Shown one piece after another: positions 5,691-61,577 of a DNA stretch of 64,000 bases. A program made the translations under genes and the position numbers. The notes beneath the pieces were generated by a model, which saw only the letters and a list, made by a program, of their open reading frames with translations, searched no databases and was not told where the DNA came from. The number at the start of each line of letters is the position of its first letter. The stretch's first letter is position 1. The DNA comes from Phytoseiulus persimilis. Lineage: Eukaryota; Arthropoda; Arachnida; Mesostigmata; Phytoseiidae. The stretch covers positions 5,828,001-5,892,000 of the forward strand of contig CM075102.1 in NCBI GenBank assembly GCA_037576195.1. The letters run 5' to 3'.

Positions 5691-5786
5691 CCCTTGTCTC
5701 GCTTTCCGCGACGCCAGCGGGCCGCTTTCGTCTGCTACGGCTAGCAGCAACTCGCTACCCGCCTAACCGACAAGAACCGGATCTTT

Positions 5787-5905
5787 CGGCTCTAGGTAAT
5801 AAGACCGGATTCAAAATGGCGGTTTGCCGACGATTCGGACGGCGAGGGGTATAGGCAATAGGGTACGATTCAAAATGGCGGTTCGCCGACAGTTCGGAGG
5901 GTGTC
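5787..5905. repeat. Duplicated TTCAAAATGGCGG element; left half of a 7-kb inverted pair
   Basis: Two adjacent copies of a motif reading GATTCAAAATGGCGGTT then GCCGAC. The second copy, with its prefix GGCAATAGGGTAC, is found in inverted orientation at about 12835-12890, on the other side of the MULE-SENP gene. It could be part of terminal inverted repeats of that element. Confidence 0.6.
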
Positions 5906-13680: not shown

Positions 13681-13799
13681 AAGATCGGTTAGAATTAGTC
13701 CAGGAAAGTGAATACCGGGTTATGATGACTGAAATAGTTTGGAAGATCGGTTAGAATTAGTCCAGGAAAAAGAATACCGGGTTATGATGACTGAAATAG
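13681..13799. repeat. 57-bp direct duplication at the Helentron endonuclease 3' end
   Basis: 13681-13737 and 13743-13799 are nearly identical (AAGATCGGTTAGAATTAG through GACTGAAATAG). The right copy contains the stop codon of the endonuclease ORF; the left copy lies beyond it. It looks like a small tandem duplication after coding sequence was fixed. Confidence 0.9.
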
Positions 13800-16742: not shown

Positions 16743-16941
16743 AGCAGATTTCTTGTGTGGTAAAAAGAGGATTTAATTTATATCAGAATTAAATCTGAAC
16801 CATCTTAAGACCCAAGCCCACCGCCCGCAATGGGATTTGCGAGGCGATAGGGAGTGTTACTGAAGCAATACCGAAAGGTGAATCCGGGACACTCCTGAGG
16901 GCTGGCTGAGAGGTTCAGCCGAAAACAGAGGATATTCTTCT
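16730..16941. mobile_element. Short insertion with 13-bp target duplication inside the Helentron ORF
   Basis: AGGATATTCTTCT occurs at 16730-16742 and again at 16929-16941; the 186 bp between are foreign to the ORF. Removing the insert and one duplicate joins the Rep and helicase frames exactly, giving the LQEEYPDQDYTDLLKR run expected for the family. A long target duplication suggests a retroposed sequence such as a SINE, but I see no tRNA-like boxes or A-tail, and the class is undetermined. Confidence 0.75.
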
Positions 16942-18863: not shown

Positions 18864-18999
18864 GTCCTCGGACCGATTCTCAACAGTTCGCCAAAAGTCA
18901 TGCCTGTCCTCTCACGAGACTCTACATCACGAGTGCGTACCTGTTGTCTATCCTCGATACTCTCGAGATCATTCGATTCGTCCACGTGCCTTGTGCCAC

Positions 19000-20370: not shown

Positions 20371-21435
20371 ATGTTCGGCCAATTCGTTTGTACGAGCGAC
20401 ATGAATGTCTCGCGAGCGAACGCCGAAGCTCGCAAATACCTCTCGGCGAACCCCAACAGACAAGTCCACATTGTCTGCCATGTGGGTGTCAACGATCTGG
20501 TCGAGCTCGCAAAGAGCGGACTAAGCATCGAAGAGGTAGCCAGTAGCATCATCACGCCACTGGAAACACTCAGGACCCTGCCAGGGGTGCTTTCCGTGGC
20601 GTGGTGCACCATGCTAGAGCACAGCACGACTCCGAATGTCGCTGCTGTTAACTCTCAGATCCTGGCATCATCAGCCGTCAGGGACACGAACGTTACGCCG
20701 ATTGACCTGAGACTGATATCGGGCGATCCGCGTAACGCCAACATCCGCGTGCCCGACGACTCCACCGAGATCCGATACAACATGATCGGTCTCAGAATCT
20801 GTTTCAACCGAATGAAACGATTCGTTGAAGAGGCGCTTTGCCTTACAGATGCGGACCGAGAACTGCTCTGTACAAAGCGCCGTGAGTATATCACGAGTTT
20901 TCAGAACAAATCTGAAGACCGTAAAAAGGCACTTGAGCTTGCCAACCAAAAGCAAAAGGCTCTCGAAGAAGCCATTGCCAAAGTTGGCCAAGCCAGGTGC
21001 CCACGGTGCAACAACAAAAACAAGGATCCCAGTCCCGCAAAGGGACTGAGAGATCAACCGGGACCGTCGTCTGCCCCGGACCGAACCTGGGACAGACACG
21101 CCCAGATCACTCCTCCGAAGCAAAGAGGCACACTCCGACCACCGAGACGGTCGGGTGAAAACGCCGCTAAGAGGCAGCGAAACACCTCACGACCGCGCTC
21201 GCCAGATCAGTGGCAAAACTACTGGCCGAAGCGCGAGGAAGACGACGACAGAGCCGGAACCCACCGAACGGGTCCCTCCGGCGGCCAACAACGTCAGCAG
21301 CAACAACAGCAGCAGCGACAACCCCCCCGACCCACGGGCAGGCACGGGAACCAAGGACCCAAGCCCCCGGGTGGCGAGCATCGAGGCGGAGCGGATCCCG
21401 CACACAAAGCGGTGAGACCGAAGACAGCACGATGA
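20371..21435 (+). CDS. LINE ORF1, SGNH-type, N-terminally truncated
   Basis: 354 codons, ATG directly after an in-frame TAA. The HIVCHVGVNDLVELAK run carries the G-x-N-D block of SGNH esterases. The GDS nucleophile block is missing because of 5' truncation, and the expected D-x-x-H near residue 145 is not obvious. Residues 190-230 are a Lys/Glu-rich helix; next comes a CPRCNNKNK cysteine pair. The last 130 residues are Arg/Pro/Gly/Gln-rich and disordered, with a Gln run. Known role of such ORF1s: RNA binding and membrane or lipid-linked steps in retrotransposition. It ends at TGA 21433-21435, and the endonuclease frame continues in the same frame. Confidence 0.75.
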   Translation: MFGQFVCTSDMNVSRANAEARKYLSANPNRQVHIVCHVGVNDLVELAKSGLSIEEVASSIITPLETLRTLPGVLSVAWCTMLEHSTTPNVAAVNSQILASSAVRDTNVTPIDLRLISGDPRNANIRVPDDSTEIRYNMIGLRICFNRMKRFVEEALCLTDADRELLCTKRREYITSFQNKSEDRKKALELANQKQKALEEAIAKVGQARCPRCNNKNKDPSPAKGLRDQPGPSSAPDRTWDRHAQITPPKQRGTLRPPRRSGENAAKRQRNTSRPRSPDQWQNYWPKREEDDDRAGTHRTGPSGGQQRQQQQQQQRQPPRPTGRHGNQGPKPPGGEHRGGADPAHKAVRPKTAR

Positions 21436-24400
21436 CGGGGAGCCAGGCCCACGAACTCTAACAATGTACCTACTAAATCTAGATCCGAATTCAAGAATAA
21501 AGTATGTACATTTGGAATACTAAACATTAATGGAACTAAATTCAATAGAGCCAAATGGGCCTCACTAGAGAGAGACGTATTAACGGGTGGAGGCATCAAC
21601 ATAATGCTTCTATCCGAAACACGCCTAATGAACGACGAATCATGCCCACCCATACAGGGATACCAGTACAGCTACAGCAACCGCAAAGGCAGCCATCGAA
21701 GCTACCCGCACGGGGGGGTCGGTATCCTGACATCCAGCAACCTATGCCAACTATGGGTCGTAAAAGGGGATGACTGGGTGGCACAAGCAACACAAGTGGG
21801 ATCAAATAGATGGATAATTATTTCATACTACATAGCCCACCAGAGCAGAGATCATGGAAAAAAATTCTTTGACTCACTAAAAAACTTCATTAAACAGAGA
21901 TGCACGGACACCGACTGTGTGCTTCTCGGCGGAGATGCAAATGCGCACCTCCAACAACTTGGAGGCGTCAACAACCACAGAGGCAAACTCCTAGAGGACT
22001 TCACCATCGAAGTTGGATACACCATCCTCAACACAACTCAAAAGTGTGAGGGACGTCTAACAAGGGGCAAGTCCGCAATTGACATGATCATAGTCAACGC
22101 TAAAGCGCTTGAGAAAGTCAACTGGATGCATATCGATGAACGTAGAGAAATCACAACAATAAGTGACCATAACCTACTCAGAGTACAGATCGGTATCAAC
22201 CAAGCAGCTCCCTCAACTCAGCCCCGCAAAGTGACGCTGATTGATCCCAAAAGAGCAAGTGCACGGATCTGCGAAGAACTCCAGCAAAAACGGGAGCAAG
22301 CAGAAATCTCGTACGAACAACTGCGTGAAACCATTCACGACAGCATACAACGCACAAGCCGCAAAATAAAACTCAGAGACCGACCAATGGTGTACTCTGA
22401 GCGCATCTCCGAACTTGTTAAAACCCGAAAAATAAAAAACAAACAATGGAGAACAGCCCGCGCTTCTCAATCCGAACCCGACAGAATCAACGCCGAGCTA
22501 GCCTACCGAACAGCGCAGCAAGACGTGAGAGGAGGTCGAGAGAGAAATACACAAGCGAGACTCCAAAACGCTGAATGAAATTCTCTCCGCCCCGAGAAAT
22601 GAGAGGGCCAGGATGTTCTGGCGGTTCGTAAACGGAAACAAACCGAGAACGAGCGGACCACAAAAGATCATCGATAACAGCGGGACAGTAGTACCAACCG
22701 AACTACTCCCGTCGCACCTAACCCAGATTGCCATCGACCTACTAGAGGCAACCCCTATCACACAGCCAACCACTATCTGCAAGATGATACCCAATCCCAC
22801 CGGAATCACCACCAGCGCAGGAGAAATCTCGAAGATTCTCAGCAAACTGAAACCAACAAGCTGTGGATTGGATGACATTCCGGCCAAAATACTAAAAGAG
22901 CTGGACGACCATGGCATAGCCTACATCGAACAGCTCTTCAACGACATATTTGCCGGAAAACACGAGGTTCCGAACGACTGGAGAACAAATAGAGTATCGA
23001 TGATCGAAAAATCGAACTCAAAAAAAAGACAACTCCACACATATCGACCGATTACGATATCGCCGGTCCTATACCGAATCTTCGCGAGAATTCTAGCAAA
23101 TAGAATCTCACAATGGGCTGAAGACAATAGGCTGCTCGGGGAAATGCAAAATGGATTCCGAGTGAATCGCAGAGGCGATGACAACCTATTCGTCCTAACC
23201 ACAGCCATCGAGATGTCCAGGAAAACGAACACCGGACTAACCTGCGCCTTCTTGGACGCAACCAAAGCATTCGACCGAATCGACAGAAACCTACTATGGA
23301 ACATTCTGTCCGAGATGGGAATGAACAATGACTGGATAACGATGCTGCAAGATCTATACTCCTCGAATAAAACAAAAATCATAGAAGGGGAGCATACATC
23401 AGAATGGGTGGAAACCAGCTCCGGCCTAAAGCAGGGCTGCCCCCTCTCCAGCACCCTGTTTATCCTCTACATTTCGGAACTCGAAACCAGGCTCACGCAA
23501 AGTGGAGCAGGCTTCGAAGTCCGAACAAAAAAATGGAGATGGGATCTGAGGGAAAAAGGTTCCTTCAACATCCAAGGTCTCCTATTTGCCGACGACATAG
23601 TCCTGATGGCAAAATCCGCGGGCGAACTGAGGAAGCTACTGTCGATAACGGGCGAATTCGGTACCGAAAGAAAGCTCACCTTCAACCCCGCAAAAAGCGC
23701 CATAGTTACATTCTCGAAATCGAACGATGGCGAACACAGCAACCTAGAAATACAAGGACAGCCCCTCCCAATCGTACGCCAGTATAAGTACCTTGGGATC
23801 ACGCTATCTGATAGCAGAAGATACCTCGACAAACAAGAAGGTATCTGGCAACAACAAGCTACAACTGCCCTTCACAGAATGCACGCCACATCCATGTGGA
23901 GCTTCAACAGATTCGAAATCTCAAAAGCCCAATGGAAAGCGACCGCAGTCGCCAAACTCACATACAGTAACTCGGTGACAGTCACGTCGAAGAAACTACA
24001 GGACCTACTGGAAAAAACTCAACGTGATGCAGGCCGCTGGGCCCTTGGCATATCAGGCTACAAAGTGTCCAAGGAATTCATACTGGGAGAACTTGGATGG
24101 TCCCTATTCGAAGCCAGGGAAGCACAAAGCAAACTCAGATACATGAAACGCATCCAACACATGCCAGATGAGAGATGGCCAAAATCTCTCCTGAACACAA
24201 TGGAGATACTCGGAATACAGACTGAACTCTGCACCCGAACGCAGACACTAAGCCACCAATACGGCTGTGACCGGATCGAGCCACCAACATCGAGTCAAGG
24301 AACACCAGCCCTAAACGCATATAACTCACTGATAAAAAAGAGAGTTAAAGAAATGCAGGAGCACGGCTGGAGGCGAGACATGCTTCTAAAAAACAGCCTA

Positions 24401-24751
24401 AGCCTATACCGCAGGGGTAAAACTTCCCCCGGTACAAGGTCTTACCTCTACGGCAATCGAAGAGGAGATGCTCTACTAGCCCTAGCAAGAGCAGGAATGC
24501 TGCCAACTAGAGGACTTTCCGAACAACAGGGCAACAACACCTGCCCGAGATGCGGCACATACGAAGAGACTGTACAACACATAATCTTCGAATGCAATGA
24601 CGCGTACTACACAGACGATGATTTCCTCAAAGCACTCGGCCTCCCAGAGGAAATGCAAGACCCATCACTAGTGTACAAGACAAAGCTTGCCCTCGAAAAG
24701 TGGGAAAAGGAGACCAAACGATCTGCGGAAGCACCTGAAATGGAAGGCTGA
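21436..24751 (+). pseudogene. LINE ORF2 (endonuclease + reverse transcriptase), one frameshift
   Basis: The endonuclease (about 21490-22200) starts in the frame of ORF1 with FGILNING and continues with LLSETRL, LLGGDANAH and SDHNLL; there is no ATG before 21604, which lies inside the domain. At about 22531 one extra base (within GAGAGGAGG) shifts the frame, so the endonuclease frame stops at 22578 while the downstream frame runs open to 24751. The reverse transcriptase has LDATKAFDRI, GLKQGCPLSSTLF and the catalytic LLFADDIV. A zinc knuckle near the C-terminus reads CPRCGTYEETVQHIIFEC. Except for the frameshift everything is intact, so the copy is young. It acts in the nucleus by target-primed reverse transcription. 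Confidence 0.88.
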
Positions 24752-25348: not shown

Positions 25349-26518
25349 TCAACTCACTCTATCGAAAACAGTACACCACATATCTTGTGTTTCATCATGA
25401 ATCAAAACCTTCAGAAGAAACCGCGATCTATAACTGTCGTGGGTCTTTTTACACTTGACGCAGTTCCATTTCCCATCTTCCGACCGATGGACCTTTTTTG
25501 AGCAATTATCTGAAAGGCAAGACTCATACAAAGCAGTACCGATGTTGATGTTTGAAATTTGAATATCATTGTGAAACACGTAGTTGTTAGATGTGACATT
25601 CTGAGTCAATAATGTCAAAAATGAAGTCGAATTCTCCACAGCAACCGGGTTCACTCGACGCGCTTCTGACGTAACCGCACATCTGGCTAACCACCATTTC
25701 CGTAGTTCCCGTCCTCTTTCTGTTTGAGGATCTGTTTCAGTCACGGTGACATCAATCAAAATGAGGGTCTTTGTACCCTCATACTCGGACGTCTTACATT
25801 TCTCGACGGATAATATCGTCCCCGCGACAGGTTGCAGTTTTTCTGCGTTCTCATTCCAAATCACCAATCCGATGGGACATTCGGTCTCATCAACGAGACA
25901 TATCTCCCTCTTTTGCAGTGCTCTGTTATCTTTCTTACGGAACACAGTCTGTGATTCTCCAGTATGACTCACGACTCCGACGACATTCACAATCTGATTC
26001 TCCGTTCCATCTTGGACGCTTTTCAGAGACGCAAAAACTGGTGCTGCATTGACGATCACTATACTGGAATTAGACTGTCTCACGCATGTTGCCCTCGTTA
26101 ATATGATCTCAAACGTATTCGATGTATTGTTGTATCTAGATGCTTTGCTACACTTGAAATAACTTATTTCTAGCATACATCCGGGCTAGATGACGTCAAA
26201 AAATTTATCGCATTCAGCCCCGAAAGCTGTAATCTGAACTTCGGAAAATTCATCAGCGACAATCGCTGAGAAAAGTTTCCCTTCACCGTTATACTTCTTC
26301 CAAGTTTTAACGTTCGATTTCGAGACAACCGAAACGCAAATTGACTCTGAATAGAATCGAGCTGTCAGATTATTCGTGTTCAACTCCCTGTCGGTCTTTG
26401 AGGCTTTCGCCTGACTTGAATCCTGCGAGGAAGTCTCGGACGACTTTCGTTTGACCTGCCCCGGCGGTTTGGGTCCGGAATGCCGAAAACCCGGAATACC
26501 GAAAACCCGAAATACCAA
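25349..26518 (-). pseudogene. RPA70-like single-strand DNA-binding protein, one in-frame stop
   Basis: Two open stretches in one frame (26518-26189 and 26185-25349) are separated only by a TAG at 26186-26188. The first has the OB-fold A signature of replication protein A large subunit (NVKTWKKYNGEGKLFSAIV, FGAECDKFFDVI). The second carries OB-fold B and then a zinc ribbon of DBD-C type (CLSDNCSKK, WNCVKCKKTH). The N-terminal residues FRVFGIPGFRHSG are encoded by a local simple repeat. RPA-like genes are known passengers of Helitrons, and this one lies in the same orientation beside the Helentron, though outside its proposed end. It could also be a decaying host paralogue. The C-terminus is probably incomplete. 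Confidence 0.75.
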
Positions 26519-37162: not shown

Positions 37163-37790
37163 TCATTGCCCGATTGAGTTGATAATTTGTAAGGCACTAC
37201 TTTTGTGTACTTGAGGAATGGGGAGTTTCAGCCCTTTTGCTAGACAGGAAGGACGCCGGAGCTGCGTCTCGTACTCGTGCTGTGTCGCACTCACTCTGAT
37301 TCTCTTGCTCATCATATCCTTCATTCCAATAGCTTCTCTCCACTGCCGCCGTGGCGGGCTCCTCAAAATGGGTGATGCGCGCGTGATTCTTTCTGGCCCT
37401 GACACATCTTTAGCGTCAACATCTTCGAGTGTCCAACGGGCTGCAACTTGCTGAATGATGGCGGCGATCTGGTTGTGCCGTGAGAGTGTATCGACGACGA
37501 CGTTGTCGGAACCTTCCACATGCTGGACTTGCTGGATGTCCGTCGTGAACTGCGAGATGAGTTCCAGGTGACTGGTTTGCCGTGGCTATCTCTCCGTTCT
37601 CGAGGCGGTTGCTGTCGTTGGAGGTTTGTGGTCGGTGAAAATCGTGAATTGTCGGCCTTCGACCATGAAACGAGAATGCTTGATCGCCAACACGATCGCT
37701 ATGAGTTCTCTGTCAAAAGCAGAGTATTTCTTCTGTCGTTGATCAAGAGCTCTCGAGAAAAAAACCTAGGGGTATCTATCCATTACATAC
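37163..37790 (-). pseudogene. Ty3/gypsy RNase H fragment
   Basis: The minus strand reads FSRALDQRQKKYSAFDREL, then GRQFTIFTDHKP (RNase H catalytic Asp in the last) and, after a frameshift near 37.6 kb, the EGSDNVVVDTLSRHNQ end of the domain. Downstream residues are weakly conserved. It follows the guanylyltransferase-like units on the same strand, in the place expected after an RT domain. Confidence 0.75.
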
Positions 37791-37918
37791 AGGGATTTTA
37801 CTTTGATCTGCGCGCTCTCGCGAGCGTTTCGTAGCTGGGATCGAGAGGAATCTTTCCTCCGTGAGTTGTTCTCCCAAGAAAAAAACGAATGATATCGAAA
37901 ATATTTCGGCCACATGAA

Positions 37919-37924
37919 TTTATT
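37919..37924 (-). terminator. AATAAA poly(A) signal, copy 1
   Basis: 18 nt after the TGA of copy 1; conserved at 40261-40266 and 42603-42608. Confidence 0.6.
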
Positions 37925-37941
37925 AACACTGATGAATGTAA

Positions 37942-38985
37942 TCACAACAACTCTTGAAGGTCAGTGTAGTCGTCAGCAGTTCGCTCACTTGAGATTTCCT
38001 GTTTTTCGAGAGCTCTACGGTTTCCGGGGTCGCTATCCTCTCTGGATATTTTGCAACCGATGCTCTCAGCAGTGACTACTGTTGTTGTCTCTGCTCGCCT
38101 CTCAGGAGAAGCTTCCTCGACTGCGGACGCCGACTTCTCTCGTGTTACTCCAACCTTCGAGCGTATGAAGCCTAGAAGGTCGTCTTTGGTCGGTTGGGAC
38201 CCTGATGATTGGTCCGTAGACTGACAGCTCTGCCATTCAAGAAGACCGGGACAGACTCCGGGGGTGTAAGCCGTCCGTATGGGCTGGAGTAATATCCCTA
38301 GGATATTGTGGGGAACCTGTGAACGGAACTTGGCTGCCAGGAGCTTCTCCGTCATATCAAGGCCGAAGGTCTCCTTCTTCCCTATCTCGAAAGGCTCTTC
38401 GGCTACCTTGATCTGGCCGTTGAGAATGGCCTGACTCCGCGCACCGATGATTTCCTTGTCGATGCACAACTTCCTTATAACGAAGCTCATGAGGCGGACC
38501 TTGTCGACCCGGAAATGAGCGATGTCCCGAACGAGAAAGCGAGGGAAGACCTTACCGTTTTCCCGGTCCAAAACCATTTCCCCGTCGAGCAGGGTGCAGA
38601 AGAGGTGCTTTCGAGGATCCTTCCGGTATGGGAATGACAAATTCGCAACAGAGAAAGCGTTGTTTCTCTCGTCGAGAAGATAGATCTCACCGGCCTGGGC
38701 GATGAGCATTAGGAAACGAACTCCATCCGATTTCCAGGTGACTCCGTATGGCTCCTTGGTCACCGTTGGGAGGTTTTGCACTCCCAAACTTCTCGGCTTC
38801 GTTCCTGGGAAGCCGGCACCCTGATGTCCGGAGAGCTGGGCGGCCACCTTTCGCACCATGCACGACTCCTCTTCGTCCTCGATGAAGGTTACACCGGGAA
38901 CTTGCTCCATGAGCTGCCTCGAGCTGTGAGGGGACTCGAAGCGGTTTGCCCCTGTGACGCTGAGGGATTGCTGTGTTTGGAGCAT
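37942..38985 (-). CDS. mRNA guanylyltransferase-like ORF, copy 1
   Basis: 347 codons from the first ATG (38985); the frame is open 25 codons further upstream to a stop. It matches the guanylyltransferase domain of metazoan capping enzyme: lead-in GFPGTKP, motif I WKSDGVRF (nucleotidyl Lys at 38731-38733), LSFPYRKD, motif III LLDGEMVLD, motif IIIa RFLVRDI. Motif IV reads ILGLLLQP where an Asp precedes the Gly in the family, and motif V reads LEWQ in place of LKWK. The RNA triphosphatase domain and the OB-fold are absent; the last 100 residues are Ser/Glu/Arg-rich and look disordered. No introns, a poly(A) signal just after the stop. Known reaction: transfer of GMP to 5'-diphosphate RNA; with these losses normal capping seems unlikely. 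Confidence 0.8.
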   Translation of the reverse strand: MLQTQQSLSVTGANRFESPHSSRQLMEQVPGVTFIEDEEESCMVRKVAAQLSGHQGAGFPGTKPRSLGVQNLPTVTKEPYGVTWKSDGVRFLMLIAQAGEIYLLDERNNAFSVANLSFPYRKDPRKHLFCTLLDGEMVLDRENGKVFPRFLVRDIAHFRVDKVRLMSFVIRKLCIDKEIIGARSQAILNGQIKVAEEPFEIGKKETFGLDMTEKLLAAKFRSQVPHNILGILLQPIRTAYTPGVCPGLLEWQSCQSTDQSSGSQPTKDDLLGFIRSKVGVTREKSASAVEEASPERRAETTTVVTAESIGCKISREDSDPGNRRALEKQEISSERTADDYTDLQELL

Positions 38986-39534
38986 CGCGATCTTCTCTGT
39001 GTGTTTGATGGCTCCGGAAGAGGATTGAGAGACTGTTCGAATTTCAGACTCGAGCTCCAACGTGTAAGCTCACGCAGGCGAATGCGAAGAGTCCCAATAA
39101 CTACGAGCGTTTTATCTGCTGATTTCAAGTGGGCGGTACCTAGTTCGACCAATGGATGAGCCCCAATAATTTGAGTTAGAATGCGTTTCAACCCCAATTC
39201 TCACTGCCCCACGGTTACAGACGCAGCTGCCTATCTGTTTTGAGGGCACACCCGCGACCTTCGGGGAGTGCGGTCAGGGTTGAGCTCTTGCTGTGACTCG
39301 CAACCACAACGGGGTTTGACTGGGCTTATTCAGCCGCAAAAGTACCGGAGCTCTCTCGTTCGATTCTATTAGGCTGATGAGGAATAGAGATCGTCTTTGT
39401 TTGGGAGAACTCCTTCACTCATGCTGATCGGACCCACTTGTTCAATCAATAGCATGATATCTCATGTGGTCCCGAGTCGATTTCGCGTCGGAAGGAGCTT
39501 GTAAGGCTCAATCCGTGGGGGAGTATCAGTTCCG

Positions 39535-40172
39535 AAGTATTGCGAGCTCTTGAGGCCCTACCAGGAGCACAGCTGCTTTGACACGACCGGGGAGAGGAGC
39601 TAATCCTTCAGCTGAGACCAGATGAACGAGGAACTTCGATTGAGGAACAGCGAATCTGCACTTGGCTTATTGATGACGAGGCCGAAGAACATCAGGCAGC
39701 TGAATAGTTGGTTCAGATGCATTAGGTGTTCTTGGTCGTTGCGAGTTATTAAAAGGATATCATCGCGATGTACAAATGCGAAATATAATCATTGGGTGAC
39801 CAAGTCCATGAGGCGTTTGAACGTGTGGGCCGCGTTCGCGAGTCCAAACGGCGTCCGGAGGTATTCGTACAGCCCGAAGCGTGTGCAGATAACAGTCTTG
39901 TGAATGTCCTCTTTTGCCACAGGAATTAGATGAGACGCTTTAGTCGGATCGACGGAGCTGAATACACGGCAGACCTCGCGGTTCGAAGCGAAGTTCTCGA
40001 GATAAGGGACTGGATATCTGCCTGGCACTGTTATCGCGTTGAGAGCTCTGAAATATCCGACCGGTCGCCATGTTCCATCAGATTTGTGAACCATGTGTAC
40101 GAAGCGGCGGAGCATGCATTCTTTTCCGATGGCTCTTCCCCCATTGTCAATCTTCCTTTTCTCCGCACCCAC
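39535..40172 (-). pseudogene. Ty3/gypsy reverse transcriptase fragment, copy 1
   Basis: HKSDGTWRPVGYFRALNAIT, then RYPVPYLENFA, FSSVDPTKA and LRTPFGLANAAHTF are RT blocks. An in-frame TGA at 39787-39789 separates them from FVHRDDILLI, where the catalytic YxDD box has become HRDD. The connection domain ends near 39535 (LAPLPGRVKAA). Inactive. Confidence 0.85.
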
Positions 40173-40283
40173 AGTTCCTTCTGTGAATTATAGAGCCTCT
40201 CCGTGAGTTGTTCTCCCAAGAAAAAAACGAATGATATCAAAAATATTTCGGCCACATGAATTTATTAACACTGATGAATGTAA

Positions 40284-41327
40284 TCAGAACAACTCTTGAA
40301 GGTCAGTGTAGTCGTCAGGGGTTCGCTCACTTGAGAATTTCTGTTTTTTGAGAGCTCTACAGTTTCCGGGGTCGCTATCCTCTCTGGATCTTTTGCAACC
40401 GATGCTCTCAGCAGTGACAACTGTTGTTGTCTCTGCTCGCCTCTCAGGAGAAGCTTCCTCGACTGCGGACGCCGACTTCTCTCGTGTTACTCCAACCTTC
40501 GAGCGTATGAAGCCTAGAAGGTGGTCTTTGGTCGGTTGGGACCCTGATGATTGGTCCGTAGACTGACAGCTTTGCCATTCAAGAAGACCGGGACAGACTC
40601 CGGGGGTGTAAGCCGTCCGTATGGGCTGGAGTAATAACCCTAGGATATTGTGGGGAACCTGTGAACGGAACTTGGCTGCCAGGAGCTTCTCCGTCATATC
40701 AAGGCCGAAGGTCTCCTTCTTCCCTATCTCGAAAGGCTCTTCGGCTAACTTGATCTGGCCGTTGAGAATGGCCTGACTCCGCGCACCGATGATTTCCTTG
40801 TCGATGCACAACTTCCTTATGTCGAAGCTCATGAGGCGGACCTTGTCGACCCGGAAATGAGCGATGCCCCGAACGAGAAAGCGAGGGAAGACCTTACCGT
40901 TTTCCCGGTCCAAAACCATTTCCCCGTCGAGCAGGGTGCAGAAGAGGTGCTTTCGACGATCCTTCCGGTATGGGAATGACAAATTCGCAACAGAGAAAGC
41001 GTTGTTTCTCTCGTCGAGAAGATAGATCTCACCGGCCTGGGCGATGAGCATTAGGAAACGAACTCCATCCGATTTCCAGGTGACTCCGTATGGCTCCTTG
41101 GTCACCGTTGGGAGGTTTTGCACTCCCAAACTTCTCGGCTTCGTTCCTGGGAAGCCGGCACCCTGATGTCCGGAGAGCTGGGCGGCCACCTTTCGCACCA
41201 TGCACGACTCCTCTTCGTCCTCGATGAAGGTTACACCGGGAACTTGCTCCATGAGCTGCCTCGAGCTGTGAGGGGACTCGAAGCGGTTTGCCCCTGTGAC
41301 GCTGAGGGATTGCTGTGTTTGGAGCAT
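40284..41327 (-). CDS. mRNA guanylyltransferase-like ORF, copy 2
   Basis: Same length and frame as copy 1, with about a dozen residue changes, including Asp to Gly in motif IIIa (RFLVRGI) and Val to Asp after MSF. Motif I Lys is at 41073-41075. The motif IV and V losses are shared with copy 1. AATAAA at 40261-40266. Open frame kept, so either the duplication is very recent or the ORF is under some constraint. Confidence 0.8.
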   Translation of the reverse strand: MLQTQQSLSVTGANRFESPHSSRQLMEQVPGVTFIEDEEESCMVRKVAAQLSGHQGAGFPGTKPRSLGVQNLPTVTKEPYGVTWKSDGVRFLMLIAQAGEIYLLDERNNAFSVANLSFPYRKDRRKHLFCTLLDGEMVLDRENGKVFPRFLVRGIAHFRVDKVRLMSFDIRKLCIDKEIIGARSQAILNGQIKLAEEPFEIGKKETFGLDMTEKLLAAKFRSQVPHNILGLLLQPIRTAYTPGVCPGLLEWQSCQSTDQSSGSQPTKDHLLGFIRSKVGVTREKSASAVEEASPERRAETTTVVTAESIGCKRSREDSDPGNCRALKKQKFSSERTPDDYTDLQELF

Positions 41328-41876
41328 CGCGATCTTCTCTGTGTGTTTGATGGCTCCGGAAGAGGATTGGGAGACTGTTCGAATTTCAGACTCGAGCTCC
41401 AACGTGTAAGCTCACGCAGGCGAATGCGAAGAGTCCCAATAACTACGAGCGTTTTATCTGCTGATTTCAAGTGGGCGGTACCTAGTTCGACCAATGGATG
41501 AGCCCCAATAATTTGAGTTAGAATGCGTTTCAACCCCAATTCTCACTGCCCCACGGTTACAGACGCAGCTGCCTATCTGTTTTGAGGGCACACCCGCGAC
41601 CTTCGGGGAGTGCGGTCAGGGTTGAGCTCTTGCTGTGACTCGCAACCACAACGGGGTTTGACTGGGCTCATTCAGCCGCAAAAGTACCGGAGCTCTCTCG
41701 TTCGATTCTATTAGGCTGATGAGGAATAGAGATCGTCTTTGTTTGGGAGAACTCCTTCACTCATGCTGATCGGACCCACTTGTTCAATCAATAGCATGAT
41801 ATCTCATGTGGTCCCGAGTCGATTTCGCGTCGGAAGGAGCTTGTAAGGCTCAATCCGTGGGGGAGTATCAGTTCCG

Positions 41877-42514
41877 AAGTATTGCGAGCTCTTGAGGCCC
41901 TACCAGGAGCACAGCTGCTTTGACACGACCGGGGAGAGGAGCTAATCCTTCAGCTGAGACCAGATGACCGAGGAACTTCGATTGAGGAACAGCGAATCTG
42001 CACTTGGCTCATTGATGACGAGGCCGAAGAACATCAGGCAGCTGAATAGTTGGTTCAGATGCATTAGGTGTTCTTGGTCGTTGCGAGTTATCAAAAGGAT
42101 ATCATCGCGATGTACAAATGCGAAATATAATCATTGGGTGACCAAGTCCATGAGGCGTATAAACGTGTGGGCCGCGTTCGCGAGTCCAAACGGCGTCCGG
42201 AGGTATTCGTACAGCCCGAAGCGTGTGCAGATAACAGTCTTGTGAATGTCCTCTTTTGCCACAGGAATTAGATGAGACGCTTTAGTCGGATCGACGGAGC
42301 TGAATACACGGCAGACCTCGCGGTTCGAAGCGAAGTTCTCGAGATAAGGGACTGGATATCTGCCTGGCACTGTTATCGCGTTGAGAGCTCTGAAATATCC
42401 GACCGGTCGCCATGTTCCATCAGATTTGTGAACCATGTGTACGAAGCGGCGGAGCATGCATTCTTTTCCGATGGCTCTTCCCCCATTGTCAATCTTCCTT
42501 TTCTCCGCACCCAC
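41877..42514 (-). pseudogene. Ty3/gypsy reverse transcriptase fragment, copy 2
   Basis: Nearly identical to the fragment at 39535-40172, with the same internal TGA (42129-42131) and the same HRDD box, showing both defects came before the tandem duplication. Confidence 0.85.
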
Positions 42515-42625
42515 AGTTCCTTCTGTGAATTATAGAGCCTCTCCGTGAGTTGTTCTCCCATGAAAAAAACGAATGATATCAAAAATATTTCGGCCACATG
42601 AATTTATTAACACTGATGAATGTAA

Positions 42626-43670
42626 TCAGAACAACTCTTGAAGGTCAGTGTAGTCGTCAGGGGTTCGCTCACTTGAGAATTTCTGTTTTTTGAGAGCTCT
42701 ACAGTTTCCGGGGTCGCTATCCTCTCTGGATCTTTTGCAACCGATGCTCTCAGCAGTGACAACTGTTTCTGTCTCTGCTCGCCTCTCAGGAGAAGCTTCC
42801 TCGACTGCGGACGCCGACTTCTCTCGTGTTACTCCAACCTTCGAGCGTATGAAGCCTAGAAGGTGGTCTTTGGTCGGTTGGGACCCTGATGATTGGTCCG
42901 TAGACCTGACAGCTTTGCCATTCAAGAAGACCGGGACAGACTCCGGGGGTGTAAGCCGTCCGTATGGGCTGGAGTAATAACCCTAGGATATTGTGGGGAA
43001 CCTGTGAACGGAACTTGGCTGCCAGGAGCTTCTCCGTCATATCAAGGCCGAAGGTCTCCTTCTTCCCTATCTCGAAAGGCTCTTCGGCTAACTTGATCTG
43101 GCCGTTGAGAATGGCCTGACTCCGCGCACCGATGATTTCCTTGTCGATGCACAACTTCCTTATGTCGAAGCTCATGAGGCGGACCTTGTCGACCCGGAAA
43201 TGAGCGATGTCCCGAACGAGAAAGCGAGGGAAGACCTTACCGTTTTCCCGGTCCAGAACCATTTCCCCGTCGAGCAGGGTGCAGAAGAGGTGCTTTCGAG
43301 GATCCTTCCGGTATGGGAATGACAAATTCGCAACAGAGAAAGCGTTGTTCCTCTCGTCGAGAAGATAGATCTCACCGGCCTGGGCGATGAGCATTAGGAA
43401 ACGAACTCCATCCGATTTCCAGGTGACTCCGTATGGCTCCTTGGTCACCGTTGGGAGGTTTTGCACTCCCAAACTTATCGGCTTCGTTCCTGGGAAGCCG
43501 GCACCCTGATGTCCGGAGAGCTGGGCGGCCACCTTTCGCACCATGCACGACTCCTCTTCGTCCTCGATGAAGGTTACACCGGGAACTTGCTCCATGAGCT
43601 GCCTCGAGCTGTGAGGGGACTCGAAGCGGTTTGCCCCTGTGACGCTGAGGGATTGCTGTGTTTGGAGCAT
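42626..43670 (-). pseudogene. mRNA guanylyltransferase-like ORF, copy 3, frameshifted
   Basis: Same domain as copies 1 and 2 with motif I Lys at 43416-43418. One extra C at about 42905 (GTAGACCTGAC against GTAGACTGAC) shifts the frame in the C-terminal tail after motif V, so the long frame ends at 42786 with a different tail. The old tail frame is still open from 42925 to 42626. AATAAA at 42603-42608. Confidence 0.8.
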
Positions 43671-44262
43671 CGCGATCTTCTCTGTGTGTTTGATGGCTCC
43701 GGAAAAGGATTGAGAGACTGTTCGAATTTCGAACTCGAGCTCCAACGTGTAAGCTCACGCAGGCGAATGCGAAGAGTCCCAATAACTACGAGCGTTTTAT
43801 CTGCTGATTTCAAGTGGGCGGTACCTAGTTCGACCAATGGATGAGCCCTAATAATTTGAGTTAGAATGCGTTTCAACCCCAATTCTCACTGCCCCACGGT
43901 TACAGACGCAGCTGCCTATCTGTTTTGAGGGCACACCCGCGACCTTCGGGGAGTGCGGTCAGGGTTGAGCTCTTGCTGTGACTCGCAACCACAACGGGGT
44001 TTGACTGGGCTTATTCAGCCGCAAAAGTACCGGAGCTCTCTCGTTCGATTCTATTAGGCTGATGAGGAATAGAGATCGTCTTTGTTTGGGAGAACTCCTT
44101 CACTCATGCTGATCGGACCCACTTGTTCAATCAATAGCATGATATCTCATGTGGTCCCGAGTCGATTTCGCTGTCGGAAGGAGCTTGTAAGGCTCAATCC
44201 GTGGGGGAGTATCTGTTCCGAAGTATTGCGAGCTCTTGAGGCCCTACCAGGAGCACAGCTGC

Positions 44263-54179: not shown

Positions 54180-54866
54180 GCGAATCAAAAGTGATTCGAA
54201 TCAAAAACCGTCGAATCAGGCTGATTCGAATCAAAAGTGATTCGAATCATTTTGATTCGAATCAGGATCGATCATCTGATTCGAATCACACGATTCGAAT
54301 CCTTACTACATATACTCGGCTTAGTCCGGGACCAGTCTGACCATACTTTTCAAAAGCTGGAGGGGTGATTCCGAGACCAATCTGAGCATTACTTCCCAGT
54401 TGTTCCCAGAGTTGGGAAGTAATGCTCAGATTGGTCACGGAATCACCCCTCCAGAGTTGGGAAGTAATGGCCAGATTGGTCTCGGAATCACCCCTCCAGA
54501 GTTGGAAAGTAATGTGCGGACTAACTGACAAACTAAGCCGATCATATATAGTAGGGATTCGAATCAGATAATGATTCGAATCAGAACATGATTCGAATCC
54601 TCTGGTTCGAATCAAAAATGATTCGAATCAGGATCATCGAATCACTTGATTCGAATCAGAAATGATTCGAATCAGAATGAGTCGAATCAGAAATGATTCG
54701 AATCAGAATGAGTCGACTCAGAAGCTATCGAATCACGTGATTCGAATCATTTTGATTCGAATCAGGACGATTCGAATCACATCTGATCCGATCTGATTCG
54801 AATCCAATGATTCGAATCAGAAGAGATTCGAATCAAGACGATTCGAATCAAAATGATTCGAATCTG
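54180..54866. repeat. GATTCGAATC palindrome array
   Basis: More than 25 copies of the perfect 10-bp palindrome GATTCGAATC or close variants, spaced by 5-10 bp of AAAA/TGAT-type filler, interrupted by the MITE at 54301-54554. Subterminal to the right end of the hAT element, with only one copy at its left end. Confidence 0.95.
54301..54554. mobile_element. MITE built from inverted 45-bp minisatellite units
   Basis: Imperfect terminal inverted repeats (TACTACATATACTCGGCTTA on the left; the right end complement has CTACTATATATGATCGGCTT). Inside, one 45-bp unit is inverted relative to about two and a half direct units of the same family as 1-192, so the left half folds back. No coding capacity. 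Confidence 0.65.
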
Positions 54867-56239
54867 CCCAACTCTGATATCGATGTGTTTCGAACGTTCA
54901 TGATGCACGGGGTTAGTTACGAACAGTTCGGCAGCATTGTCCAACCACATAGTTGTTGGAGAAGCCTGCTCAAAATTTAGCTCCTTCAGGAGTCTTCTCA
55001 GTCAGACGACAGTCCGGGTGCACGAGTGTGCTGCGACATACTCCGCATATAATGTGGAGTCCGCGACATTTGACTGTTTCTTCGATCTCCAGTTCACAAT
55101 CCCGCCATTCAACATTAGGCATATACCTGAAATGGATTTTCGCGTTTCGATCTCAGACGCCCAGCTGGCGTCGCTAAAAGCGACCAAGATGTTCCGATCC
55201 TCTCCAGCCGAGTAGACGATTCCGTCACTGATTGTTCCTTTGAGATAACGTAACACACTCTTCGCGCACTGCCCATGCACTTTCGATGGACAACTCAGGA
55301 ACTGTGAAAGTTGATTCACAATGTACGCTATTTCTGCGCGAGTACAACCAGCCGAATATTGCAACGAGCCAATAAGCTCGCGATACGGGGCCTTGTACGC
55401 TTCAAGGGCATTACCACACTCATCTATGTTTTGCCTGAGAATCAGGTCAGCCTGATGTGGCGTCTCAGCTGGATTGCAGTCCGCCATAGAGAATCTTTCA
55501 GGGACTTTCTCCGTGTATGCCGTTCGGTGGAGCTTGATTTGTTTCTTTTCTCGATGACGTTGAAGTTGGATTCCAATGGAACAGTCCGCAGTACCTCTGG
55601 TCATCTTGAAAGTTTCTTGAAGTGAGTCCAGGAAGTCGTTGATCACATCCAAGGATCGTGCTATGCAGAGACCGTCATCAACATATAAGGCAGAATAGAG
55701 AGCGTCTTTTTCTCTCACGTGGACGCAGACATCAGCTGAACATGGCTCCAGACCTAACTCTTTCAGAGCTGCTGAAATCCTCTAGTTCCATTGGAGCGGG
55801 GCCTGTTTCAGGCCGTATAGAGCTCTCTGCAACTTGCACACTCTCCCACTCCGGTCATTGTAACCATCCGGTTGCTCCATGAAGATGTCTTCATCCAGCT
55901 CCCCGTAGAGGAATGCTGTGGTAACATCGCATTCCACGATTTCCAGATCCTGAACCGCCGCCAATGAAAGCAGATACCGAATCGATGTGAGCCCGGAGAC
56001 AGGTGAATAAGTCTCAAAGTAATCCACCCCAGCTTTCTGGGAACTCCCTTTGATCACTAAGCGTGCCTTATGACGGGCCACGGCTCCGTTGGGAAGATAT
56101 TTCACTCTGAAAAGCCACATCGATTTGATCAGATTAGCTCCAACCGGACGCTCAACTAGACGCCAAGTTTTGTTAGCCATCAGGGAATCATATTCGCTTT
56201 TCACCGCTTTCTTCAACTGTTCTGCGTCAGCAGATTGCA

Positions 56240-58123
56240 TGGCCTCACTGAAAGTCGAGTGACTTTTATCCACAAAACCTGCAAACGACTATATCACGTC
56301 TTGTGCGATGTTTCCTTAGTTGAGTTGATCGACTGGGACTCCATCAATCGGCATTACTGTAGTATTAACTTGACTTATTGCAGCTCGTACATCCGTCTGT
56401 TGCAGCCATTTGGAGTTCAGACGAACATGGTTCTGCGGGCCAAGGGCCTGGACCCGGGAGACGGAAGTACCAACGAAGGCAATTTCCGAGCTCTGCTCAG
56501 ATACCGCCTAGATACCGGCGACCATCTTCTCGCAGAGCATCTCAGCAATTCGAGGCGAAACGCGACAAACATCAGTGGAAAATTCCAGAACGAGATAATC
56601 AAGGTTATTTGAAGAATAATCCGGAAAAAAATCGTCAGCGAAGTCATCCGATCAAAATTTTACTCTGTGCTGGCCGACGAATCAAGGGACGTCGGCAAGA
56701 AGGATCAACTCACTATATGCCTACGTTACGTCGGAACAAGGAACGATCAACATGTACTGAAAGAGGTCTTTCTCAAATTTTGCGAAGTGACCCAGAAAAC
56801 AGGCGCTGGACTCGCTCGGAGCATCATGATGCGCTCGACGAAGAAGGACTCGATGTGAGGAACCTAAGGGGCCAGGGATATGATGGTTGCAGCGCCATGA
56901 GTGGGTCATCCAGAGGAGTCCAGGCAGAGATAAAAGCTGTCGTTCCACAAGCGTTGTATTTCCACTGCGCTAGCCATTCCTTGAATCTTGTATTGGTGCA
57001 TTCTAGCGAGCTCGTACCAATACGGTTAGCGGCCGGCTTGGTGGCCAAAGTCTGCGCTTTCTTCTCGCGCTCCTCTGTGCGCGTGAGACTTCTGCAAGAT
57101 CTCGTGGAAACCCACGCGCCTTCTTCGAGCAAGCGTGGGCTGAAGCCTCTCTGTGCCACTCGTTGGGTGGAGAGTCATCTCGCGTTCATCACCTTCAGGA
57201 AACTTCTCGTACCCATAAGTCATGCTTTACGAGAGCTCAGGCTAGGAATCGGAGATGCCGCACTTCGAGCACATCAGTTACTCAGTTCGATTTCTGAATG
57301 CGAGTTCGTAGCATCTCTGCTCATCATAGAAACCTTCTCTTCACTCTTCCTGCCTCTATCCACAAGTCTCCAAGCGAAAGACGTTGACATTTTCGCTGCA
57401 CTGGGGACCGCGGACAACGTCCTCTCAGTTTTGAGTCAACGGCGAAAAGATGCGGATGAGGTATTCAAAACAGTCTTCGGAGAGGTCTCGCAGCTCTGCG
57501 CGGATCTAGATATCGACGCCCGCATGCCTCGGCTGTGTGAACGACAAACTCAGAGGGAGAATCATCTCTCTAATACCCTTGAGGATCATTTCCGAGTTTC
57601 GATCTACCTCCCATATCTCGATAGCTTGATAGAAGGATTCATATCAATGTTCGCCGATTCGAGGCAAAATGTTCTGAAAGTCCAATGCTTGGTGCCGAAA
57701 TTCACGGTGAAGTCCTCTTTCCAAGACTTGCTCGACACGATAGACTTCTACGAAGCTGACCTGAACTGCGGCAACAGCATCGTTCGAGGCGAATTCGAGC
57801 TGTGGAAAGCCAGATGGGTCAAGTGCCCTCAGAATGAGCTTCCTGTGAGCGCAATCGAAGCTCTCAATCGCTGTTCTCCGGCTGAATACCCGAAGATTTT
57901 CGTACTTCTTCAAATATTGGCTACCTTACCCGTGACAACTGCCTCCCCGGAACGAAGTTTCAGCAGTCTGAGACTGCTCAAAACGTATTTAAGGTCTGAG
58001 ATGGATGGAGAGCGTCTCAACGGATTGGCTCCCATGAACATTCAACGTGAAATTCAAGTCTCGCCGGAAGAAGTCATTGATCTCATCGCGACGGATCCAA
58101 GAAAACTGGACATGATTCTCTAG
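56240..58123 (+). pseudogene. hAT transposase (DUF4371/ZMYM-like), one stop and one frameshift
   Basis: The N-terminal part reads GNFRALLRYRLDTGDHLL, then NATNISGKFQNEIIKVI, a TGA at 56610-56612, and in the same frame KFYSVLADESRDVGKKDQL with the first catalytic Asp. A one-base shift at about 56825 leads to the long second frame: LRGQGYDGCSAMSG, FHCASHSLNLVL, CATRWVESH (RW block), and the hATC dimerisation region LATLPVTTASPERSFSSLR to the stop at 58123. The zinc-finger N-terminus is lost where copia sequence begins. Family role: cut-and-paste transposition with 8-bp target duplications. It is not the source of the 1219-bp hAT element, whose ends differ. Confidence 0.85.
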
Positions 58124-58439
58124 AAGTCCAGAAATCCAAGTCGATATCAGCTCACCATCATTCGATTGCGCTTTGAAGTGTTATTCTGTTAAGAATCTGG
58201 TATATGAGAATTATTATTCGTCAGTGTACTAGCATGAAGGCTGGAGCAAGAACTCATTGAGTGAAAATGCGATACTGCGGTGCTCAAGCCAATTTCACAA
58301 AATTTCGTCGGTCGAGTCCGATATATGTGATTATGGATATGACTAATACAATATTTATTCTGGAGGGAAGCAATGTTGTTTTACTTTTCCTGTACACAAT
58401 TGCCTGCCTTATACATAGTTCTCAACACCTGATCTTGTT

Positions 58440-58494
58440 TCCGGGCACAAAAAATTGCCCCTCCCCCCGAGAGAAAATCTTGGGCACGCCCCTG
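58440..58494 (+). repeat. hAT right terminal inverted repeat
   Basis: Ends GAGAAAATCTTGGGCACGCC CCTG; the minus strand starts CAGGGGCGTGCCCAAGATTT, a common hAT terminus. No matching left end or duplication seen. Confidence 0.6.
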
Positions 58495-58510
58495 GCGTGA
58501 AAAGAAAGCA

Positions 58511-61500
58511 GTGCCGAATTTGGAAGGGTCAAACACGAGACTACGAATGTACGGTGGAGATCTGACCAATTCGGTCGGCCGATTCACGATCCACGCAGCT
58601 AACGGAGGCAAGAAAATCCGAGTGACGTTCGAAGTAGCCAAGTTAAGAGAACACCCACTACTCAGTGCGGAGACATCGATAAGTCTGAAATTCATCAAAC
58701 TCGGGGACAACGTTGAACTCGTGAACCAAATACAACAATCACCAGAATACAGCAATGAGCTAGAGGCGCTTGTGCAGGAATATGAAGACATCTTCAAGGG
58801 CCTAGGCCGTCTGCCAGGTGAAGTCCGAATCGACTTGAGGGAGGATGCAATACCCATACAATGTCCGCCACGCAAAACACCTGTGGCACTCAAAGACCAA
58901 ATAATACAAAGAATTCAGCAGCTGCAAGCTCAAGGAGTAATAACACCAGTCAGCAGACCGACGAAATGGATCAGTCATATGCTGGTGGTCGCAAAGAAAG
59001 TAAAAAAACTCACGAGTGACTCTCGATCCATGCCACCTTAACCAAGCAGCAAGACGGTCTCACCACCCACTGCCAATGCTATCAGATGTATAGCCTCGGC
59101 TGTCGAATGCGAAATTCTTTTCGGTGGCTGACGCATCGGATGGATTCTTCCAATGTGTCCTGGAGGAATCCTCAACCGATCTCACAACATTCTGGACTCC
59201 CCTAGGACGATACAAATATCTCAGAATGCCACAAGGCCTAAGTGTATCACCGGAAATATATCAAGCCAAACAAGTGGAAGTCATAGCCGACGACATTCTA
59301 ATACATGGTACAACGCAAGAAGAACATCTACGACACTTGAAACAGTTCTTTCAACGATGTCGAGAGAAGAATCTCAACCTCAACCGAAGCAAACTACGCT
59401 TGTGTGCAACGCAGGTGAAATATATGGGACATATACTTACTCGAGACGGACTGCGCCCAGACCACGAAAAGATCGAAATCATACAGAAAACCCAACCACC
59501 AAAAGACAGAAAGCCCTACTGCGTATACTAGGGTCAACGAACTATCTTTCGAAGTTCAAACCAGGCTACTCAGAAATAGCAGCGCCGCTACGAACACTAC
59601 TCAAAGACAACGTGGAGCTCGCAAGGTGGGACCAACAACAGAGATCATTCGACAAATTGAAGGAATATCTGTCAAAAGCCCCGGTACTCGCGTACTTCGA
59701 CACAAAGTTCCAATTCTCATCCAAACTGATGCGAGCCCGAGCGGCATCGGCGCGGTCCTGCTGCAAGAGGGCCGCCCAGTGGATTTCTGTAGCGCAGCAC
59801 TGAAACCGGGCGAACTGAACTATGCCGTCATTGAAAAAGAACTCCTAGGAATCATGATAGCGTGCAAGAAATTCGAACATCAAATCTTCGCACATCCGGA
59901 CGTCACAGTCGAAACGGACCACCAACCGCTGATCAGTGTTTTCAAAAAACCACTACACACCGCCCCCAAGCGACTCCAAAGAATGCTACTTTATCTACAA
60001 AAATACAACTTCGAACTAAGATACGTGAAAGGAAAGAGAAACTGCATAGCAGATTGGCTTAGTCGGGATACGTACAGAAAATCACATGATACATCAAACG
60101 AAGACAGTATAGTTTTCAGAACAGAGATAATGAACGTCAACGCTAGCAGGCTAACCCCAATCAGAAACTCAACATCGGAGGAGATAGCGAAGGCATCAGC
60201 AACCGACTTGGAGTCTGTACAACTTCGGAAAATACTGATCGAAGGAAGGCCAGCATGCAAACGATCATGCCCCAAGGATTTGGTTCCGTACTGGAAACAC
60301 AAAGCAGACTTAACAACCCAAGATAATCTGATATTCAGGGGTGAAGCAGTTTTCATCCCTAAAGAACTCAGAAGAGAAATGCTATTGTTAGCACACTACA
60401 GTCACTACAGCTTTCCATCCTCATGGAAGCGAGCCAAGCACTGCATATACTGGCCGTCTGTGAAATCGGAGCTCAGAGAGTTCTGTGAAACATGCAACAC
60501 ATGTCTGTCGAACCTATCGAAACAACCAAAGGAACCGATCTTGCCGACTCCGTTGGCAACATACCCCTTTCAAATAGTCTACCAAGACATTTTCACGTGG
60601 AGAAGCAGACACTACCTAGTAACGGTGGATTCGTACTCCGACTACTTCGAGGTAGACAAACAGCAACCTCAGAGAAAGTCATCACGGCAACTGAGAAACA
60701 TTTGGCACGGTATGAAGCCCCCGTTGAACTCCATAGCGATAATGGATCTCAATTCACATGAACCAGCTTCATCGAATTCTCGCAAGACTGGGGCACAACG
60801 CACATCACAAGCTCTCCGTGTTTTCTCCAAGGAAACGGAAAAGCGGAAGCCGCTGTCAAAGTAGCAAAGAGACTGTTGAAAAAATACACGACGAGCCAAG
60901 AAAACTAACAGTACGCGTTATTGGACTTGCGAAACACTCTACAAGCCGACAATTCGAGCAGAGCACAGAAATTCTTCTCAAGGCGACTAAGGTGCAAACT
61001 CCTATCAGTAATGGACCAACAGTACATACAAAACGAGGAACAGCTCAAAACAAACGAGAAAAAAAAATCTTCGCGGAAAGAAAAATTTGATAAGTCAGCC
61101 AAAGAGCTCAAACCACTCAATCCAGGAGACGAAGTGCGAGTACAACGAACACGAAAATCTGAGCTGTGGGTCGCAGGAACGTTCACCGAAGCAGTTGGCT
61201 CGAGATCATATCTGGTCAAGCTCAGGGACGGAACGGTTATCCGTCGCAACCGGAAACATTTGCAACTTGTCCGTCAGATGAATTTAAGGAATGCACAAGG
61301 TCCCGTTGGGTCTGAAAACGCAAAGAACGAAAAGTGTCCGCTAGACGATACCATACAGAGCCGCACTGGGGAAAAATCCGAAATGCAAAGTCGCATGGAG
61401 GAGGATGCTACAGTGCATCGGCGCAAGGAAATCGATTCCGATCATCAAGAACAGGATATCGACAGACAGAGTCATACGGAAACGCCAGACGATCCCCACA

Positions 61501-61577
61501 ACACAGATGAAACAACTAAGTCATCGGCAAGAAGACCACAGAAGAGGAGAAGGGACAGTCCAACTCAAGCAGACTGA
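58511..61577 (+). pseudogene. Ty3/gypsy pol (RT, RNase H, integrase), several frameshifts
   Basis: Starts at the end of protease, then RT: GLGRLPGEVRIDL, ITPVSRPTKWISHMLVV, FFSVADASDGFFQ, MPQGLSVSPEIYQ. About ten residues are missing before VIADDILIHGT (YxDD box as IADD). After a shift at 59.5 kb, LGSTNYLSKFKPGYSE; after another at about 59.7 kb, RNase H (LIQTDASPSGIGAVL, VETDHQPL, RNCIADWLSRD). Integrase follows with its zinc finger (HYSHYSFPSSWKRAK, CETCNTCLSN), catalytic Asp in VDSYSDYFEV, then HSDNGSQF in another frame, and Glu in QGNGKAEAAVK. The C-terminal module (LNPGDEVRVQRTRKSE) and a charged tail end at 61577. No LTRs identified. Confidence 0.88.

Follow-up and report, generated by a model that had tools for sequence, protein, structure and literature searches.

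Why should one domain of a capping enzyme be repeated in tandem among the remains of a retroelement? The question is raised by a small array in the genome of Phytoseiulus persimilis (181 Mb in 127 contigs), found in a stretch of 64,000 nucleotides, here called the window, on contig CM075102.1 (our C2; G000:C2:5828001-5892000). Each copy in the array carries an open reading frame (ORF) that resembles the guanylyltransferase (GTase) domain of capping enzymes. Our analysis finds that this ORF belongs to an amplified family whose GTase domain is under purifying selection, and that its catalysis is very probably dead. In our explanation, the array lies at the outskirts of a family of truncated paralogs of the host capping enzyme that has been amplified locally; taken whole, this explanation is put forward tentatively.

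A family amplified on one contig

Searching the genome by tblastn with the window protein returned at least 49 matches. At least 23 are near full length (L001-L023), and all of these lie at C2:5.87-6.72 Mb, an interval of 0.85 Mb; a search with PF01331 gave 38 matches and agrees with this picture. The initial annotation dealt with the window, which the family far exceeds. Unbroken frames of 375/376 codons are kept in 18 of the 23 near-full copies, the C-terminal tail is broken in four (L019-L022), and one (L023) contains a stop. Copies occur in both orientations, three pairs have identical ORFs, and many of those outside the window array are spaced at about 9-16 kb. Four plus-strand copies, for example, stand at 6.311, 6.324, 6.338, and 6.350 Mb, and the ORFs of the first and third are identical.

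One 12.7-kb stretch of the cluster (6326801-6339500), with a single copy at its end, holds ORFs that by eye look like those of long interspersed nuclear elements (LINEs), together with a 45-bp satellite; no other genes were recognised in it, two of its 31 listed ORFs having been scanned with no Pfam match. The 45-bp satellite also occurs in the window at 1-191 and 54406-54514 (unit likeness judged by eye), and some 30 copies of it are found 0.5 Mb from there in one unit of the GTase cluster (L061, about 4550-6120). A pattern search for (TTAGG)5 gave 0 hits.

As first described, the window array has three copies of a 2342-bp unit. It consists of direct repeats at 37857-44262, 2.7 units in all, with starts at 37857, 40199, and 42541, a spacing of 2342 and 2343 bp, and unit 3 ending at 44262. 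The array and what adjoins it can be set out as follows, RT standing for reverse transcriptase.

37586-37765 (-): Gypsy-type RNase H fragment past the 3' end of copy 1 (RT_RNaseH, E 3.6e-14)
37805-37856 (strand not assigned): end of a foldback (long inverted repeat) element, abutting the left edge of the array
37857-40198 (-): repeat unit 1, comprising GTase ORF, 5' region, and Gypsy RT fragment
37942-39069 (-): GTase-like ORF copy 1, open frame of 375 codons, first ATG at 38985 (347 aa), PF01331 E 4.8e-39
39070-39496 (-): 5' region of 427 bp, which the family conserves together with the ORF; candidate promoter or 5' untranslated region
39526-40187 (-): dead fragment of a Gypsy-type RT, lying upstream of copy 1 and with an internal break in its frame (RVT_1, E 1.7e-8)
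40199-42540 (-): repeat unit 2
40284-41411 (-): GTase-like ORF copy 2, open frame of 375 codons, first ATG at 41327, PF01331 E 1.1e-38
41868-42529 (-): RT fragment in unit 2, limits taken from the 2342-bp shift
42541-44262 (-): repeat unit 3, upstream part cut off and RT fragment almost wholly gone
42786-43754 (-): GTase-like ORF copy 3 (L022), frame of 322 codons, first ATG at 43670, PF01331 E 3.3e-41

Two of the three copies therefore keep the full frame, as had been claimed, and the third retains the whole GTase domain with a frameshifted C-terminal tail. The TTG starts of these ORFs are a by-product of the program that listed them; the first ATG is codon 29 in all 23 near-full family copies. 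An AATAAA 18 nt past the stop, reported at the outset, is present in both full window copies and in 16 of the 18 full-frame family copies. There are 17 base differences between the ORFs of copies 1 and 2, which excludes a single sequence entered repeatedly by the assembler; since the copies differ and occupy many places in both orientations, we reject an assembly artefact. Among solved structures in the PDB, capping enzymes are the best matches to copy 2 (E 5.6e-55 to 1.5e-52), and we take them to be mammalian. A viral origin was also considered and is rejected, because these best matches are cellular capping enzymes and one pattern-based scan of viral contigs gave no viral relative. PDB entries 8W8E and 8W8F are RNGTT, according to excerpts of PMC11139899.

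What, then, of the retroelement? By its position the array falls between an RT and an RNase H remnant of a broken Gypsy pol; both remnants, we infer, come from one element. Relatives of the RT fragment lie upstream of 16 of the 23 near-full copies (not L004, L005, L007, L008, L019, L022, or L023), and the 427-bp 5' region, whole or in part, adjoins all 23 (L023 partly); among the best candidates scored, no DNA-level copy of the 5'/RT stretch fell outside the C2 interval. The 52-bp foldback end has similar sequences at several dozen places in the genome; in the two elements that were read from end to end (L066 and L067), the inverted arms measure 423 and 322 nt. The initial annotation had the gene riding with retroelement sequence. 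This stands insofar as a dead Gypsy RT has been co-amplified with it; of a retroelement moving the gene there is no sign. The intronless state, which had been noted, carries no weight as an argument, and the lack of introns does not show a retrocopy, because the frame of the parent (L025, below) is itself uninterrupted. By eye, no poly(A) run follows the AATAAA in the window array. Tandem or segmental duplication fits better than retrotransposition, because the near-full copies are found within that one interval of a single contig; from the positions, copy number would have grown by tandem duplication and by segmental duplication of roughly 13 kb in DNA rich in transposable elements (TEs).

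Catalytic motifs and selection

The host capping enzyme is L025 (C1:41784600), an uninterrupted frame of 650 codons of the animal-type fused form, with a triphosphatase (DSPc, E 4.3e-14), a GTase (E 5.1e-65), and an OB-fold (PF03919, E 3.2e-17). Comparison with this gene, a check proposed from the start, establishes the relationship of the GTase domain: the family shows 45% identity to L025 over 232 aa (E 4e-68). The family tail after motif V matches the C-terminus of L025 weakly (E 0.061); such a match, if real, may mean that an OB-fold was lost internally.

Six family proteins were scanned for domains (the three window copies with L003, L007, and L016). All match PF01331, at E 1.1e-38 to 3.3e-41 and over profile positions 1/2-193 of 194, and none matches PF03919 (OB-fold, motif VI) or DSPc; for the window copies, where this absence had been noted, it holds at E up to 1. 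The KSDG of motif I and DGE of motif III were likewise correctly reported, and are present in all three window copies. Over the 22 cluster copies L001-L022, to which all motif counts refer, the motif I Lys is kept in 22, its Asp in 20 (lost in L004 and L005), and DGE in 22.

Motifs IV and V, whose loss the initial annotation missed, tell a different story. The motif IV Asp (human D438), retained in L025, has become Leu in 20 copies and Arg in two. Motif V, K-W-K in L025, reads E-W-Q or E-W-H in 21 of the 22 and D-G-T in L021, where the frame is disturbed, so that its first Lys is replaced by Glu in 21 copies and Asp in one, and its second by Gln, His, or Thr in all 22. Motifs IV-VI are needed for guanylyl transfer. 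Judged by the state of motifs IV and V and by the missing OB-fold, this protein is very probably inactive as an enzyme; we reject a working guanylyltransferase, which the first description had implied. According to excerpts of PMC8034621, residues K460, D468, R528, R530, D532, and K533 are important in catalysis and in the binding of GTP/RNA; K460 is the second Lys of motif V.

If the enzyme is dead, is the protein still maintained? Omega and rate fits were made on 19 of the 23 near-full copies, omitting L005, L008, and L017, which are identical to others, and L023, a copy of 76% identity with a stop; the tail fit was limited to copies with more than 240 letters in the tail. Twice the difference in log-likelihood is written 2dlnL, and its values are slightly overstated for a reason given below. 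Omega is 0.259 (2dlnL 48) for codons 29-283, the GTase domain, 1.23 (2dlnL 0.5) for codons 284-376, the tail, and 0.467 (2dlnL 26) for the whole frame.

Measured against the dead RT fragment linked to it, which offers an internal standard, the protein sequence of the GTase domain evolves far more slowly. In a partitioned nucleotide fit on one tree (RT fragment from 15 of the 19 copies, 5' region from 19, 3' flank from 18), the relative rate of the RT fragment is 1.30. Codon positions 1+2 of the GTase domain run at 0.47, or 0.36 of the RT rate, and its third positions at 1.29. For the tail the rates are 1.40 (positions 1+2) and 1.37 (position 3), for the 3' flank 2.03, for codons 1-28 1.01, and for the 5' region 0.85 (370 bp).

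Recent changes point the same way. Eight disjoint recent pairs, hand-chosen from the tree and compared over codons 29-276, have 31.5 synonymous versus 20.5 nonsynonymous changes in the GTase domain (p 3e-9, the expected synonymous share ignoring transition bias), and six recent pairs have four synonymous versus 26 nonsynonymous changes in the tail. Over the tree, 7.6-10.8 stops would be expected without selection in the whole frame and 4.9-6.9 in the GTase domain; the domain has none in the 19 distinct copies (P 0.0075 to 0.001). Purifying selection acts on the GTase domain, then, and the tail looks near neutral. Lost catalytic residues together with purifying selection on the fold domain would be expected of a pseudoenzyme maintained by selection, and this is the combination found here.

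Other relatives place the family in a wider lineage. L024 (C2:22425710) resembles it in its KSDG motif I, in a motif V of E-W-E, and in having no OB-fold match. It differs in keeping the motif IV Asp, in occupying one locus, in a triphosphatase part that has decayed (DSPc E 0.0022; 18.3 bits where the cut-off is 33.5), and in changes at six of the seven sites in the pockets that, in the mammalian enzyme, bind the carboxy-terminal domain (CTD) of RNA polymerase II (Pol II). As an observation in its own right, L024 (G000:C2:22424210-22428031) is an open frame of 411 codons with both former catalytic parts changed, and may be a second pseudoenzyme. L028-L030, on C2, C4, and C3, are broken relatives with stops inside, which group with the cluster and apart from L024 and L025 (ultrafast bootstrap 96, from short fragments). 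The motif V change from Lys to Glu is also seen in L023, L024, L029, and L030. From L024 and L028-L030 it appears that a duplicate lineage of the capping enzyme arose, spread, and partly died, one branch being amplified.

Proposed role and rival explanations

What might a dead enzyme with a guarded fold do? That very combination suggests a binding role. The family would be made as protein, a pseudo-capping-enzyme working without catalysis as a GTase-fold adaptor or decoy. A non-catalytic adaptor or decoy is, in our view, the best explanation of the amplified dead paralogs, and a possible one, if still short of probable. Its most likely target would be the Ser5-phosphorylated CTD of Pol II, because the pSer5 and Tyr1 pockets, termed CDS1 and CDS-Y1, are kept in 22 of 22 cluster copies, and there it would compete with the true capping enzyme or tune its recruitment. 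With modest confidence, resting on the pocket residues, a CTD-binding adaptor or decoy may be named as the single most likely mechanism.

Excerpts of PMC8034621 give the pSer5-CTD contacts of mammalian GTase as R330, K331, and R386, a Tyr1 pocket of F367, V372, C383, and E387, and a second site of R358, K403, and R411; excerpts of PMC6981093 state that the mouse GTase domain binds phosphorylated CTD. In the family, R330, K331, R386 (as Lys), and the Tyr1 pocket residues are those kept throughout. At the second pSer5 site the family keeps R358, and the place of K403 is taken by Leu even in L025.

Several observations weigh against the adaptor and against the selection on which it depends. Six of the seven pocket residues are identical, to be set against a baseline of 64% (67 of the 104 positions that the human and host enzymes have in common), and this gives P = 0.21; we do not accept CTD docking as demonstrated. 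R411 has become Val or Gly. The OB-fold docks the mammalian enzyme on Pol II, according to excerpts of PMC11139899, and the family has no OB-fold match. AlphaFold2 on the three window copies gave a predicted local distance difference test score (pLDDT) of 28, and L004 and L005 are without the motif I Asp. The 2dlnL values are slightly overstated because the null kappa was tried at three values only, and the omega and rate fits use models without gene conversion. In older pairs the ratio of nonsynonymous to synonymous divergence (pN/pS) of the tail is 0.58 (p 0.16), and it is 0.42-0.63 in five pairs of another comparison, so that the tail may once have been weakly constrained; because neutrality of the tail is not clear-cut in the older pairs, it is the newer changes that carry its contrast with the domain. 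Finally, the window pair L001/L002 shows one synonymous and five nonsynonymous changes in the GTase domain, and the window copies may therefore be relaxing. Purifying selection, a check proposed with the first description, accordingly holds for the family (omega 0.26, rates, and recent pairs) and fails for the window pair alone.

This last ratio of 1:5 would suit a neutral amplicon, in which a capping-enzyme pseudogene is a passenger of unstable TE-rich DNA and its frames are open only through youth. The lost catalytic motifs, the stop-broken relatives elsewhere (L028-L030), the tails broken in four of 23 copies, and the stop in one would suit it too. However, it has to meet a GTase-domain omega of 0.26 (2dlnL 48), positions 1+2 at 0.36 of the dead RT rate, constraint over eight recent pairs (p 3e-9), and zero domain stops in 19 distinct copies where 4.9-6.9 are expected, and we consider it unlikely. 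Selection on copy number itself would give an ampliconic gene in genetic conflict, through meiotic drive or its suppression, or through germ-line competition in dosage. In its favour are the confinement of at least 23 near-full copies to 0.85 Mb, their occurrence in both orientations, the three identical-ORF pairs, and the broken relatives on C2, C3, and C4 (L028-L030); the selection seen on the domain is purifying, not diversifying, and we rate this reading as rather doubtful.

Might some chemistry survive? The motif I Lys and DGE, kept in 22 of 22, would allow a nucleotidyltransferase that is still active, either forming its own GMP adduct or passing a nucleotide to some substrate that is not an RNA end. 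Yet the family lacks the acidic residue in motif IV, has neither lysine of motif V, and is without the OB-fold, K460 is among the residues that excerpts of PMC8034621 name as important for GTP/RNA binding and catalysis, and L004 and L005 lack the motif I Asp; such an activity seems to us very unlikely. We give still less credence, very little indeed, to the units being templates for small RNAs that act on the gene of the true capping enzyme. Clusters that are multi-copy and embedded in TEs can be sources of PIWI-interacting RNAs, but selection here is on the protein sequence, third positions run at the RT-fragment rate, and 45% protein identity to L025 leads one to expect little long, near-identical DNA. 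The non-catalytic adaptor or decoy remains our preferred reading. Carried further, it would make the stand-alone pseudo-capping-enzyme a selected, multi-copy regulator of early transcription that replaces the true enzyme on Ser5-phosphorylated Pol II, the dosage of the cluster setting capping, perhaps in the germ line or against transposons; so bold a version we regard as improbable.

Neighbouring sequence and known systems

The window is rich in TEs. Other features outside the array are listed here.

10833-11882 (+): uninterrupted ORF of 349 codons with a Ulp1-type protease domain (PF02902, E 5.3e-36)
13757-18911 (-): Rep/helicase ORFs of Helitron type (Helitron_like_N, PIF1); the helicase ORF carries an endonuclease domain (Exo_endo_phos) at its end
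20371-24751 (+): LINE-type RT (outer limits by eye)
25349-26185 (-): OB-fold ORF resembling replication protein A (REPA_OB_2, Rep_fac-A_C)
55002-55781 (-): Copia-type RT
56369-58123 (+): hAT dimerisation region
58433-61577 (+): Gypsy-type pol pieces (outer limits by eye)

The ORF at 25349-26185 is repetitive and probably element-borne, because its 60 genome matches include several of at least 90% identity and many that contain stops.

Capping enzymes are essential, and usually single-copy in animals. An inactivated, clustered family with a guarded GTase domain would be a natural test of roles of the GTase fold beyond cap-making, and would offer a way to ask whether competition at the polymerase tunes cap addition. 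The co-amplified dead retroelement fragment is, in addition, an example of an internal neutral clock for a gene family.

How does this family compare with systems already described? With the metazoan capping enzyme (RNGTT/Mce1; L025 here) it shares the GTase domain, motifs I and III, and the first CTD docking site; it differs in having no triphosphatase or OB-fold match, in the loss of motifs IV and V, and in its many clustered copies. The GTase-like domain of CMTR1 is non-catalytic. It too has a capping-type GTase-like fold, docking on the Pol II stalk (excerpts of PMC11139899, with the list of its domains in an excerpt of PMC6071836), and is joined to a methyltransferase domain, whereas the family is stand-alone and amplified; the two are likened by description only. 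Searches of open-licence papers in PubMed Central revealed no capping enzyme that is amplified or a pseudoenzyme. Ampliconic families in segmental duplications are similar in their local multi-copy growth, near-identical copies, and intact frames. The family would behave as a pseudoenzyme, which is a known class; its amplified, stand-alone, TE-embedded form appears to be new.

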